From Microthrixaceae bacterium (lineage in GTDB: Bacteria > Actinomycetota > Acidimicrobiia > Acidimicrobiales > Microtrichaceae): a stretch of DNA of 64,000 bases. The notes beneath the pieces are model-generated. The model did not search any database, had not been told where the DNA came from, and saw only the letters and a program-made list of their open reading frames with translations. Location of the stretch: NCBI GenBank assembly GCA_023957995.1, contig JAMLGK010000008.1, positions 62,001 to 126,000 on the forward strand, in the 5' to 3' direction. Position 1 is the first letter of the stretch; every line of letters starts with the position of its first letter. The translations under genes were made by a program, and so were the position numbers. Below are positions 17,563 through 25,737 of this stretch, in pieces.

Positions 17563-19053
17563 TCAGTTGCCCCGGACCTTGGCCACGAGTTCCATCAGCT
17601 CGGTGCGAGCCGGAGGTGAGACCGCCAGCGCGAGGGCAGCTCCCACTGCTCCGGCGAGGGTCACCAGCAGGCCCGACAGCGCCCCGGCATCGGTGAGCAG
17701 CCGAACGGGAAGTGCGAACACCAGCACACCGGTCGCAACCACCATGCCGGGACCGCACGAGAGCACCACCTTCATCATCGAGGCCCCGACCAGGCCGTTG
17801 ACCACGACCTGGCGGATCGTCACGAACACGGCCTGGATGCACAGGTGGGTGAAGGCCACCCACTCGATGCCGTGCGGGGCCACGAACCACATCGTGGCCA
17901 GCATCGTCGGCACCATCACGAGGTTGATCCGCATCAGCAGACCGGGACGGTTGATGGCGTAGAGCAGGTCACCGGTGGCGAATCCGAGGCCTGTCACGCA
18001 ACCGGTGAGTGAGATCAGTTCCATCGTCGGAACCGCCGCGGAATCGCCGGTTCCGAACATCACCGTGATGACGTCGCGGGCCACCAGGGCGAGCCCTATC
18101 CCCACCGGGATCGAGAACAGCCCCACGATCCGGAGCGCCCGGTACATCGCGGAGCGCAACGCATCGGGCCCCTCGGTGCGGATCCGGCTGTACATGGGGA
18201 ACAACACCGCTGACATGGCGTTCAGCTGGCCGCCCATCACGATCTCGGGCAGACGGAACGCCTGGTAGTAGAGGTCCAACGAGCTGGTCCGGTTGCCAAC
18301 CACGAAGTAGTCGCCGTTCAACGCCAACAGGCCCAGGAATCGGTTGCCTGCCATGCGCCACGCGTACGCGAACAACTCCTTCACGATCGAGCGCTCCCAC
18401 GCCAGGATCGGTTTGTACCTGGTGGCGATCCAGGTGACCACGGTCCACACCGTGCGGGAGGCGACGAAGCCCCAGACCACACCCCAGATCCCGAGGTCGT
18501 AGTGGAGCACCAGGATCAGCGTGAGAACGAGTCGGGTGCCGTCGCGGAGCAATTCGGACACCGCGCGCGGCCGGAACGAGAGATCCCGGTTCAACAGCGC
18601 CCACGGCACCGTGTTGAGACCGGAGATCACGATGATCGGGCCCATGATCATGAACACGCCGACGTAGTCCGCCAGGTTGAACACCGCACCCAGCACCGGT
18701 GCGAGACCCACAGCAGCGACAGCCAGCACCAACGCCAGCGCGACGTTGGCGGTGAACGCCACATTCACCCTGCGGCTGCGTCCGGTCTCCTGTTCGTAGA
18801 TGAGCGATGCGCCCATCCCGAGGTCCAGGGTCGTGTCCGCGTAGAGCATCACGACGGTGAGAGCCACCATCGCGTCGTAGTCGGACTTGCTGAGCGAACG
18901 GGCGAGCACCGATGCCAGGACGAACGCGACACCGAAGCGACTCAGAAGCCCCACGTTGGCCCACAGGTAGCCGCGTGTGGCGGCGGTGCCGAGATCCTCT
19001 CGGGACACCCGTTGCCCGGGCGACTCCTGCTCTTCTGGATCCAAGGAGGTCAA
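17563..19053 (-). CDS. Oligosaccharide flippase, Wzx/MATE-like
   Basis: A 496-residue membrane protein with 12-14 predicted helices of the polysaccharide-transport (MOP) superfamily. It begins GYLWANVGLLSRFGVAFVLASVLARSLSKSDYDAMVAL, split over the first two helices, and carries LLNRDLSFRP and NRFLGLLALNGDYFVVGN. It should flip lipid-linked repeat units to the outer membrane face. The TTG start (19053) overlaps the TGA stop of the frameshift-extended upstream gene as TTGA. That supports the extended reading of the upstream gene and implies translational coupling. Confidence 0.85.
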   Translation of the reverse strand: MTSLDPEEQESPGQRVSREDLGTAATRGYLWANVGLLSRFGVAFVLASVLARSLSKSDYDAMVALTVVMLYADTTLDLGMGASLIYEQETGRSRRVNVAFTANVALALVLAVAAVGLAPVLGAVFNLADYVGVFMIMGPIIVISGLNTVPWALLNRDLSFRPRAVSELLRDGTRLVLTLILVLHYDLGIWGVVWGFVASRTVWTVVTWIATRYKPILAWERSIVKELFAYAWRMAGNRFLGLLALNGDYFVVGNRTSSLDLYYQAFRLPEIVMGGQLNAMSAVLFPMYSRIRTEGPDALRSAMYRALRIVGLFSIPVGIGLALVARDVITVMFGTGDSAAVPTMELISLTGCVTGLGFATGDLLYAINRPGLLMRINLVMVPTMLATMWFVAPHGIEWVAFTHLCIQAVFVTIRQVVVNGLVGASMMKVVLSCGPGMVVATGVLVFALPVRLLTDAGALSGLLVTLAGAVGAALALAVSPPARTELMELVAKVRGN

Positions 19054-20380
19054 CCCCGCAGCACCACGACGCCCGACGGGCCCGAGGCGAAGGACCGCAG
19101 CGCGTCGCCGGCGAGGCGGGCATCGGTCATGCGGGTACGACCCTCGGTGATCACCATGAGCGTCGTGTCGGCGAGCGACAGCATCTGTGAGGTCGGAACC
19201 GGCCCGGGATCTGGGGGCCGTTGATGATCACGACATACCTGCCTGCGAGAGCCTCGAGCACACGGTCGAGGGTCGAGCGCATCCGCAGGATGTTGCGGCT
19301 CCGATCGACTCCGGCTCCCATGAACCTCACCATTCCGGCCGGCGCCGTCATGCCGTCGAGTTCACGGGGAAGTGCTGTGTCGGGAAGGTCGACCAGGGCT
19401 GCATCGGCCGACAGCTGACCCGACAGGCACTCGCTCAGTCCTGCCATGTCCGTGCTGCCGAGCAGGTTGGTCAGTTCGGAGTTCTGCAGGTCGGCGTCCA
19501 GGAGCGCCACGGGCTGACCGAAGTTGGCGGCGATCACGTTGGCCAGTGCGAGCGACAGCAGAGCGCGCTCGGAGGCCGAGTCGGGGCCCACGAGCACGAG
19601 GCGGTGAATCGGCTCGTCGAGGCTCAGCCGCTCGACCGCGGAGATCACCCCTGCCACCGCGTCACGCGGATTGGCCGAGCGTCCCGACAGGGCCGGCACC
19701 TTGACCAGCACGGGGAGGTCGATGGCGGTGGTGACGTCCTGAGCCGACGACACCACCGGCTTGCGCAGGTTCCGCGCGAGGAAGAACAGGTAGGGCACCA
19801 ATCCGCCCAGGACCAACCCGAACAGGGCGGCGAACCAGACCGGGAACCGGGTGGTCGACTGCAGCGGGAAGTCGAACACCTCCTGGAACACAGGTCCGCT
19901 GATGCGTTGGCTCACGGGCAGATCGACCTGCTGGGCCTGGAACACCGCCGTGAGTGCCGGGAGGATCTGTGCGCTCACCGCCTCGGAGAGCTCCTTGTCG
20001 GCACTGGTGCTGATCACGTCGATGTACGGCGACAGCGGGGACCGGCTGGTCGAGATCATCGCGTCGATCTGGTCGATCGACTCCTCGAAACCACCCCGAC
20101 GCTTCACCTCGGCTGCCATCTGCGTGGAAGTGACGATCTGTTCGAAAGCGGCCGAGAGCACGTCGTTCTCGTTGGCGTTGGCGCCCGAGTACACGATCAT
20201 CGAGCGCCGCGTCTCGTAACGCGGCGGACTCAGCTGTGAGAACACCACCGCGATCACAGCCGTGATCAGCATCGACGCCACGACGATGATCGTCTGGTTC
20301 CGCGAAAGCCGGAGCGAGCGGCGCTCCTGGTCATCACCGCGCGCAGCGATGACGCTTTCGTCGTATGGCATCGGCGTCAT
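19050..20380 (-). CDS. Wzz chain-length determinant with BY-kinase-like ATPase domain, read through a -1 frameshift
   Basis: Joins a Wzz-type membrane domain (transmembrane segments near residues 28-48 and about 180-200) to a cytoplasmic domain resembling bacterial tyrosine kinases. Walker A is degenerate: GPDSASERA has no Lys. Walker A' survives as ALLDADL. The zero frame stops at 19151 with an unrelated Arg-rich tail. A -1 shift at 19202-19208 instead gives IPG-PVPTSQML, LADTTLMVITEG and about 30 more family-like residues, ending at a TGA overlapping the flippase start. The full product would be 443 residues. A one-base sequencing or real deletion is the alternative. The start (ATG 20380) is uncertain because no strong ribosome site is seen. 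Confidence 0.75.
19202..19208 (-). promoter_or_regulatory. Candidate -1 ribosomal slippery heptamer CCCGGGC
   Basis: In the zero frame the codons are C CCG GGC, the X XXY YYZ layout needed for simultaneous -1 slippage to CCC GGG. It sits exactly where the Wzz/BY-kinase-like gene changes frame. A short TGTCG/CGACA hairpin starts about 24 bases downstream. It could also be the site of a missing G. Confidence 0.4.
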
Positions 20381-20498: not shown

Positions 20499-20600
20499 AT
20501 GGGATCGTTGGTCAAGAAGCGCCGTAAGCGCATGCGCAAGAAGAAGCACAAGAAACTCCTGCGCAGGACGCGCCACCAGCGCCGCGCACGCGGCAAGTAG
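20499..20600 (+). CDS. Small ribosomal protein bS22 (AURKAIP1/COX24-domain, 33 aa)
   Basis: A 33-residue, extremely basic protein: MGSLVKKRRKRMRKKKHKK followed by LLRRTRHQRRARGK. This matches from memory the actinobacterial bS22 family (mycobacterial members begin MGSVIKKRRKRM), which binds the small ribosomal subunit and shares the AURKAIP1/COX24 domain of mitochondrial ribosomes. An in-frame longer reading would start inside the divergent Wzz gene and is not supported. It has its own -10-like box, no Shine-Dalgarno, and stands alone between the polysaccharide gene and ispE. Confidence 0.9.
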   Translation: MGSLVKKRRKRMRKKKHKKLLRRTRHQRRARGK

Positions 20601-22220: not shown

Positions 22221-23008
22221 CACGTTCCGGACTCACCGAGCCCGTAGAACGCCCTCGAGTTCTCGACGGTGACCGAGGCGACCTCGTCGACGGGGATCTG
22301 CTTGATCGCAGCGACGGCCTCTCCGACGAGCCCGACCCATGCCGGCCTGTTGGTCTTGCCCCGGTTGGGTACCGGCGCGAGGAACGGCGCATCGGTCTCG
22401 ACCATCAGACGGTCCAGGGGTACGGCGGCCACGGCTTCCTGTACGTCCTCGGCGGAGCGGAAGGTAACGATTCCGCTGATCGACAACATGGCGCCCCGGT
22501 CCAGGCACGCTGTGGCCTCCTCCGGTCCACCGGTGAAGCAGTGGAACACGGTGCGCGGGGGGATCCCCTCGGTGTCGAGGATCTCGAAGGTCTCATCCCA
22601 CGCCTCGCGTGTGTGGATCACGAGCGGCAACCCGTAGTGGTTGGCGAGGCCGATCTGGCGGGCGAACACCTCCCGTTGGTCCTCTGACGGCGAGTGGTCG
22701 TAGTGGTGGTCGAGACCGCACTCCCCGACCGCCACGGGTCTGGGCAGGTCACCGACCGATCCCTTGATCAGTTCCTCGAGACCTTCGATCCCGCCCGCGG
22801 CATCGTGTGGGTGCACACCGGCGGTGCCCCACACATGGTCGTGGCGGGACGCCAGTTCCAGACAGAACGTGGATGTGGCCACGTCCACGCCCACACAGAT
22901 CAGTTCCTGCACACCTGCGGCGTGGCTCTCTGCGAGAAGTGCGCCGACGTCGTCGTACCCGTCCAGATGGCAGTGGTTGTCGATCCACTGGATCGCTGGA
23001 GTACTCAT
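22220..23008 (-). CDS. tatD: TatD-family metal-dependent hydrolase/DNase
   Basis: A 262-residue TIM-barrel hydrolase. Metal ligands are visible: DNHCHLDG at the N-terminus (HxH), GECGLDHHYD with the bridging Glu, VIHTREAWD, FHCFTGG and ETDAPFLAP near 205. TatD proteins are 3'-5' nucleases or deacylases acting in DNA repair and quality control. The position ahead of ksgA-ispE is a widely conserved order. Its ATG overlaps the stop of the Wzy-Wzz fusion gene (ATGA), which is unusual because metG normally precedes tatD. Confidence 0.93.
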   Translation of the reverse strand: MSTPAIQWIDNHCHLDGYDDVGALLAESHAAGVQELICVGVDVATSTFCLELASRHDHVWGTAGVHPHDAAGGIEGLEELIKGSVGDLPRPVAVGECGLDHHYDHSPSEDQREVFARQIGLANHYGLPLVIHTREAWDETFEILDTEGIPPRTVFHCFTGGPEEATACLDRGAMLSISGIVTFRSAEDVQEAVAAVPLDRLMVETDAPFLAPVPNRGKTNRPAWVGLVGEAVAAIKQIPVDEVASVTVENSRAFYGLGESGT

Positions 23009-25737
23009 ACGTCCGAGAGGATCACACCTGCGGACCCTCGGGCAAAAGTGGCCAACTGGAGCGCACCGTCCTCGGCGTCGAAGGTGACGGTCTCGCCTTC
23101 GACGAGGTCGTAGAACACCACGTCGGCCCAGCCCATGACGGGACCCACGGCCACCGTGCCCGTCAGCGGCGGTGACAGCACCACCGTCACGATCGACTGG
23201 TCCAGACCATCGAGCCACGCCGGATCGAACTGGTCCCCGCCACCCCGCGACACCCGACCGGCGCTGACGAACCGCAGGTTCTCACGCTTGCCCCGCAGGG
23301 ACCTACGGATCACCCTCGGCAACAACCAGACCTTCACCCGCGACAGCACCCGGTCCAGTCCGACTCCCGATCCGGCCATCTCCCTCACACCGGGTGCGCG
23401 CCAGAAGCCCATCCTCCTCGAGAGCCGCGGCCGCCCCACCTGGCCATCCACCAGCACGACCTTGTGGTCCATCGACGCCAGGGCGGCGGCAACCCCCAGC
23501 GCCAGGGTGCGCGTGGAGCGCGACGGCGTCGGCCCCGCGACGACGATTCTGCGCGGCATCAGTTCGGCGCCGCTCTCCTCGGCCGCACGCACCGCTATGT
23601 GTGCGTACTGGTCACCGGTCGCACCATTGCGGCGGTTGCCGGGCCGTCCGACATGGCTCCACAGCGGAAGCCCGAGCGAGTCGTCGAAGTTGTCGGCGTC
23701 GTTGACCCGCGGCTTTCGCTGCTGGAGCAGCATGTACCCGACCGCCACGAGGCCTCCGGTCATGAGCCCGACGAGGAAGTTCCAGACCACCCGCGGAGGC
23801 ACGACCCCCAGGTCCACGTAGTCCGATACCGGGAGGTACAACGGACCGGTGTAGTAGCGCTGTTCTCCCGGGACCGTCGGACGGAGCTCGTCACGCAGTG
23901 TCGGGATGGTGAACTGCCTTCCCTCCTCGACCAGCGCGTCCACGGAGTCCAGCATGTGGGGCGCCACCTGCTCGACGAGAGCCTGGTCAGGGTCCTCGAA
24001 GGTGATTGCGACGAAGGGCCCGAACTTGGGCCGGTCCACGGTGATCCCCGAGGAGATCTCCGGTGGCGTGGCGTCCACCCCGCTCCGGTCGATCAGTTCG
24101 GCCGCGTACGCGTCCGAGAGCACGAGCGTGTGGATCATGCTCACACGCGCGCGGTCGATCCGCACCGACTGGAGCGAAGCGGGCACGTCCAACTTCGGAA
24201 TCATCATCGACACCGTGGCTGTGTACCTGTTGGTGGCCGACCCCGTGGCGGCACCGAACGCGATCCCGCCACAGATCGCTCCGAGCAGCACCCAGATCCT
24301 GAAGCGCCGCGAGATCTTGAGATCCCAACGGGCCAGCCGGGGCGCGCTGAACCTGTCGCGCGGCTGCTCGTCGGGCGGGCGCGAGAAGTAACCCCGGTAG
24401 CGCTTGCCCCAGGACGGGACCTGGAGGATTCCCGCAAGGCCGACCAGTGACCAGGCGAGCTTGTTGTTGGAGAGATCCAGGAACATGGAGCCACTGAGCA
24501 CGGGGAGCATCATCAGGAACAGGTAGCCCGAGATCTCCTTTGTCTGCTTCCAGCGCGGACGCAGGAACCCGATGACGGTGATCACGATGATCGATCCGTA
24601 GATCGAGAAGCCGATGACCCCCAGGTTCCCCAGGAAGTCCAACCAGGTGTTGTGCGAGGTCACCTCGTCGCGCTTGTCGGAGTGCGTCGTGGTACCCGGC
24701 GTGGTGGCGAGGAGGCCGGGGATCTTCTCGTTGATCTGACGCTGGCCGTGGCCCAGGACCGGTCGCTGGGAGATGAGCTCCACAGTGGCCTTCCAGAAGT
24801 CGAGCCGGCCCGAGCTGTCGGTGCCGCGCTCGAGGGTGTTCGGGTTGGCGAAGATCAGGATCACCGCGACCAACGCGGTGCCGATGCCGGCCGGGATCAC
24901 CACCGATATCCGACGCTTGATCGACTCGCCGGGTCGGTAGACGAGGCTGCCGAACAGAGCCAGTGCCGAGCCGATCACTCCTGAACGGCTGCCCGCTCCG
25001 GCCGCGCCTGCGAGGACCATCAACAACACGACCGTGTAGATCCACTTCTGGCGCGTGCTGGTGGCGTTTCGCCGGTAGTAGAAGGTGAGCGGAACCATCG
25101 AGGCCGCCAACACCCCGAACAGGTTCGCGTCGCCGTTGAAGCCGAACGCACGCACACCGTTGACCAGGCCCGCCACCCCCGCCGCGGCGCCGAAGATCCC
25201 GCCGTACCAGTAGGCGCGCAGGAACTTCCCGATCTTCTCGTACGAGTCCACCAGGAGCCCGGTGGCAGCGAAGTAGGCGAGGGCCAGGCCGATCGTGCCG
25301 ATGCCCACCATCCACGAACCCGGCAGGGCTGCCCACACCCCGCTCGCAGTTGCCCAGGTGGCGAGGGCGAGCGGACCGATCCAGTGGCGGGTGGGCATCG
25401 CGGGCGGACGCCACTTCTCGACCACCAACTTGTAGACGATCACCGCGACGACCACCGCTGAGATGACCCTGCCGAGGGTCACGGGACCCACACCGATCCC
25501 GTCGAAGTGGATGAGGAAGGCCACCACCTCGATCAGCGCCAACGAGCGCCGTACCGCGAAGAGGATCGAGCCGGTCACGAAGGCAACCGCCAACAGGATC
25601 AGCACACCGAAGCGGGTCTGGATCGCGAGTACCGAAGCGCCCAGCAGCACCAGGGCCGCGACGACGAACAGCACCGTCTGCGGACGCCTGGGTTCCTGCC
25701 CACCGGCGGGCTCGGTGTAGCGCTCGAGAGTCTGCAA
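23005..25737 (-). CDS. Wzy-like polymerase fused to Wzz and BY-kinase-like domains (910 aa)
   Basis: Three modules of polysaccharide export in one chain. Residues about 15-450 carry ten or more transmembrane helices and the O-antigen ligase/polymerase region GHGQRQINEK followed by TSHNTWLDFLGNLGVIGF. From about 465 a Wzz-type pair of transmembrane helices brackets a periplasmic domain (NRYTATVSMMIP to VVPPRVVWNFLVGLM). From about 720 comes a Rossmann ATPase-like domain whose P-loop reads GPTPSRST, without the Lys, and whose Walker A' is VVLVDGQVGRP. No Tyr-rich tail is seen. Polymerisation and length control would be physically linked, with a nucleotide-dead kinase domain. The TTG start is weakly supported. 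Confidence 0.82.
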   Translation of the reverse strand: MQTLERYTEPAGGQEPRRPQTVLFVVAALVLLGASVLAIQTRFGVLILLAVAFVTGSILFAVRRSLALIEVVAFLIHFDGIGVGPVTLGRVISAVVVAVIVYKLVVEKWRPPAMPTRHWIGPLALATWATASGVWAALPGSWMVGIGTIGLALAYFAATGLLVDSYEKIGKFLRAYWYGGIFGAAAGVAGLVNGVRAFGFNGDANLFGVLAASMVPLTFYYRRNATSTRQKWIYTVVLLMVLAGAAGAGSRSGVIGSALALFGSLVYRPGESIKRRISVVIPAGIGTALVAVILIFANPNTLERGTDSSGRLDFWKATVELISQRPVLGHGQRQINEKIPGLLATTPGTTTHSDKRDEVTSHNTWLDFLGNLGVIGFSIYGSIIVITVIGFLRPRWKQTKEISGYLFLMMLPVLSGSMFLDLSNNKLAWSLVGLAGILQVPSWGKRYRGYFSRPPDEQPRDRFSAPRLARWDLKISRRFRIWVLLGAICGGIAFGAATGSATNRYTATVSMMIPKLDVPASLQSVRIDRARVSMIHTLVLSDAYAAELIDRSGVDATPPEISSGITVDRPKFGPFVAITFEDPDQALVEQVAPHMLDSVDALVEEGRQFTIPTLRDELRPTVPGEQRYYTGPLYLPVSDYVDLGVVPPRVVWNFLVGLMTGGLVAVGYMLLQQRKPRVNDADNFDDSLGLPLWSHVGRPGNRRNGATGDQYAHIAVRAAEESGAELMPRRIVVAGPTPSRSTRTLALGVAAALASMDHKVVLVDGQVGRPRLSRRMGFWRAPGVREMAGSGVGLDRVLSRVKVWLLPRVIRRSLRGKRENLRFVSAGRVSRGGGDQFDPAWLDGLDQSIVTVVLSPPLTGTVAVGPVMGWADVVFYDLVEGETVTFDAEDGALQLATFARGSAGVILSDV

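Follow-up and report, generated by a model that had tools for sequence, protein, structure and literature searches.

The locus and its frame break

The window analyzed here, a stretch of 64,000 nucleotides, is part of a 3.54 Mb genome in 36 contigs; its named relatives from the same genus are MAGs that carry the label Microthrixaceae. The features considered are the following:

17563..19053, minus strand: downstream flippase (Polysacc_synt_3 / MOP family), with a TTG start that overlaps the TGA of the -1 frame
19050..19202, minus strand: the 50 conserved C-terminal codons with their stop; the window has them in the -1 frame, relatives in the zero frame
19151..20380, minus strand: Wzz/BY-kinase-like gene, zero frame as it stands, 409 aa, the last 16 residues aberrant
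19202..19208, minus strand: the heptamer CCCGGGC, where the frame breaks, read as (AT)C CCG GGC (Ile-Pro-Gly); the extra base of the relatives would follow CCG GG directly

The initial annotation described a zero frame ending in a meaningless tail, a correctly phased X XXY YYZ heptamer at the frame change, about 49 further codons after a -1 shift, and a closing TGA overlapping the flippase start, and each of these elements is present. The zero frame runs on the minus strand from ATG at 20380 to TGA at 19153-19151, and its end reads YVVIINGPQIPG followed by RFRPHRCCRSPTRRSW and the stop. Up to residue 394, where most relatives' match to it stops, this frame is 40-82% identical to family relatives. 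The heptamer occupies 19202-19208 in the codons ATC CCG GGC, and a -1 shift there yields PVPTSQMLSLADTTLMVITEGRTRMTDARLAGDALRSFASGPSGVVVLRG, counting 50 residues and closing at the TGA at 19052-19050, which shares two bases with the flippase TTG at 19053-19051.

In the encoded protein, a Wzz-like region flanked by two hydrophobic segments precedes a BY-kinase-like P-loop domain that is degenerate. By sequence, a profile of 14 family members matches BceF 6z0p (E 4.6e-8), as well as Etk and Wzc. Matches to individual domain models are weaker: Pfam PF02706 (Wzz) gives E 0.0041 and 17.8 bits for the window protein, under the cut-off of 25.5, and matches 5 of the 14 members weakly (best 5.6e-5); NCBIfam tyrosine-autokinase matches are also weak. 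The window protein shares with the co-polymerases Wzc, Etk and BceF a P-loop-like cytoplasmic domain and the Walker A' DAD, which is conserved in the family, and probably a Wzz-like N-terminal part. It departs from them in three respects. No Walker A GK[ST] is found in the 14 aligned members, and GPDSASERALL aligns with GPTPGIGKSFL of BceF; the Walker B aspartate is replaced by Asn in most of them; and the C-terminal tyrosine cluster is absent from the -1 tail and from the tails of relatives, which end in VVVLRG or similar. The earlier Wzz/BY-kinase-like label therefore holds in outline, but the kinase half does not fit it: because this half lacks both the Walker A lysine and the C-terminal tyrosine cluster, the window protein is probably a pseudokinase. 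The alignment suggests a conserved pseudokinase co-polymerase in this bacterial family. The neighbours of the gene are a flippase, a Wzy-like protein and a sugar transferase, and judging from family and context it is most likely a Wzz-type protein that regulates chain length or export but has no kinase activity.

Comparison with relatives

A match was obtained in 38 of the 61 genomes searched, a set that includes the window's own genome, and it is long in 28 family relatives. The site is readable by motif in 26 of these 28, the distant G008 (29% identity) being unreadable in this way. Comparison with close relatives had been proposed in the initial annotation, and it reveals a continuous frame across the site: all 26 readable relatives encode the tail in one zero frame with no shift, so that the frame change is shared by none of them, and the same-genus G001, an assembly with other frame breaks, also has the base that is absent from the window. 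At the break the window is one base shorter than its relatives, directly after CCG GG, a single-base length difference from intact homologues of the kind expected from an indel mutation or a sequencing error. The suggestion that one G is missing is strongly supported as to the loss of a base, but the lost base need not be G: relatives use GGT, GGC, GGA and GGG at this codon, with T, C, A or G at the wobble position. The one scan of genome contigs yielded just the two same-genus MAGs, without another assembly of the window's species.

The heptamer does not share the conservation of the reading frame. An X XXY YYZ pattern occurs at the site in only two of the 26 relatives, G002 (CCCGGGT) and G017 (CCCGGGC), in both cases in phase within an uninterrupted zero frame; it is absent in the other 24, and the wobble positions at the heptamer site vary freely. 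CCCGGGC is not enriched in the window (28 occurrences versus 40 expected), and the 36 window genes hold five in-phase copies, four of them in uninterrupted genes. Patterns of the X XXY YYZ type occupy approximately 0.2% of codon positions in the window genes. We looked for a downstream structure in the 92 nt 3' of the site, which fold less stably than shuffled sequences (z +1.0) in a model that does not cover pseudoknots. In E. coli, a survey of all 64 heptamers places C_CC.G_GG.C among the three that do not reach the threshold even when the IS3 pseudoknot is present (PMC4066793), although such results may apply less than fully to an actinobacterium. CCCGGGC here is a coincidence of conserved Ile-Pro-Gly codons in a GC-rich genome.

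Substitution patterns in the tail bear on the age of the break. Over the 50 codons, pN and pS are 0.029 and 0.535 against G002, 0.071 and 0.483 against G017, and 0.061 and 0.447 against G001, a constraint approximately equal to that of the 50 codons upstream of the break. By this measure the tail is under purifying selection, and the base loss should therefore be either very recent or not real. The same selection rules out an old pseudogene.

Assembly quality

We scanned contig 35 (~104 kb matched) and three 20 kb stretches of other contigs (~53 kb matched) for frame breaks, using the syntenic genes of G002 and G017 as references and, for part of contig 35, those of G005 too. The break in the Wzz/BY-kinase-like gene is the only clear one in ~157 kb of relative-matched sequence of the genome. 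That such a scan can see breaks is clear from G001, where a comparable one flagged 26 of 47 genes. Other flagged 'breaks' resemble N-terminal over-extensions of the relatives' ORFs: their second pieces are short, show little conservation or contain the gene starts of other relatives. Internal stops in the matches were located close to the ends of alignments, within extensions of low conservation, or in apparent antisense ORFs. A generally error-ridden assembly is thus unsupported. One isolated break in a low-indel assembly fits a rare consensus error and a real recent deletion alike.

The same-genus MAG FR_25 (L033 / G001:C10, JAOSKI010000010.1), riddled with frame breaks yet intact at this site, serves poorly as a reference when frames are analysed.

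Origin of the frame break

The locus is almost certainly an ordinary polysaccharide co-polymerase gene from which one base was lost ~50 codons before the end, by an error or a very recent deletion, the change being private to this assembly. Several observations argue for this reading: the presence of the base, and of the same tail in one frame, in all 26 readable relatives and G001; the restriction of the in-phase slippery pattern to two relatives with uninterrupted genes; a pN/pS in the tail as low as upstream of the break; and the absence of a stable fold in the 92 nt downstream, together with the non-shifting behaviour of the motif in E. coli. Against it stands the position of the shift point, which falls exactly on a correctly phased heptamer of a type that is rare among codon positions, and the E. 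coli data may not hold fully for an actinobacterium. Where a break is a singleton and database matches back it, the usual interpretation is a sequencing error or an indel mutation (PMC3711429). The locus resembles the singleton indel frame breaks of prokaryotes (Antonov et al. 2013, PMC3711429): one gene leaves its frame close to the 3' end while the homologues are intact. There is no notable difference, the heptamer at the break being a coincidence.

How the base was lost is a question of weighing two accounts, and the weights given here are judged, not computed. A consensus or assembly error is the more probable account: the organism's gene would be intact, and a base would have been dropped in a GC-rich stretch able to form a small hairpin. 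Undiminished purifying selection on the tail favours it, as does the location of the site inside a CGGCCC...GGGCCG inverted repeat, a difficult sequencing context, and singletons with BLASTp support are expected mainly as sequencing errors (PMC3711429). It is weakened by the clean appearance of the assembly across the matched coding sequence and by the hairpin itself, which is ordinary against shuffles (z -1.06).

Less probable, but a serious alternative, is that the strain or population sampled has genuinely and recently lost one base, which would truncate the protein. The low indel background of the assembly supports a deletion, and among frame breaks close to the 3' end of a gene, real mutations outnumber errors (PMC3711429); on the other side, the tail shows no decay, and its conservation across the family implies that its loss should be costly. 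If the deletion is real, the protein would stop 16 aberrant residues past the Walker-B-like segment and would lack the last part of the P-loop fold, which would probably impair it. Ribosomes would then halt ~100 bases ahead of the flippase start, with a possible effect on translational coupling.

Programmed -1 frameshifting at CCCGGGC, producing a short and a long form of an export regulator as the initial annotation had offered as one reading, is very improbable. The correctly phased heptamer at the frame change and the conserved tail encoded by the -1 frame are what recommend it, and the site does resemble dnaX / IS3-type systems in its X XXY YYZ heptamer. It differs from them, however, in that neither the heptamer nor the need for a shift is conserved, the motif is of a non-shifting type, and no stimulator was found in the downstream stretch. 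The proposal does not survive the comparison: no readable relative needs a shift, all having a continuous zero frame, the wobble positions are free, the motif is among the least shift-prone in E. coli even beside a strong pseudoknot (PMC4066793), and the identical in-phase heptamer is present in four intact window genes. There is similarly little chance that a real deletion has become fixed in the species and is tolerated because enough ribosomes slip at CCCGGGC to supply some full-length protein. Phase variation by slippage in a repeat, suggested by the one-base difference, can be dismissed as having next to no probability, since a long homopolymer or short tandem repeat was sought at the break and only runs of three C and three G were found, and the relatives are all in the on state.

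Under the favoured reading of a one-base loss, the annotation of the gene should record a frameshift and note that relatives carry intact copies. Pro-Gly-like codon pairs in GC-rich genomes give X XXY YYZ heptamers by chance, and a heptamer at a frame break is therefore weak evidence of recoding unless compared with relatives.

Neighbouring loci

A 910-residue protein encoded at 23005-25737 on the minus strand contains an O-antigen ligase/Wzy_C part (Pfam E 7.8e-14) and, after it, a weak tyrosine-autokinase-like match at residues 731-802. The protein looks like a polymerase carrying a fused co-polymerase-like domain. Many relatives have paralogous matches that likewise lie in open frames of ~900-1150 residues, and the fusion of polymerase and co-polymerase-like domain may be conserved in them.

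At 20499-20600 on the plus strand lies a very basic ORF of 33 residues, MGSLVKKRRKRMRKKKHKKLLRRTRHQRRARGK. We take it to resemble the small actinobacterial ribosomal protein bS22; small genes of this kind are easily missed by annotation. One relative (L018) has a start similar to that of this ORF.
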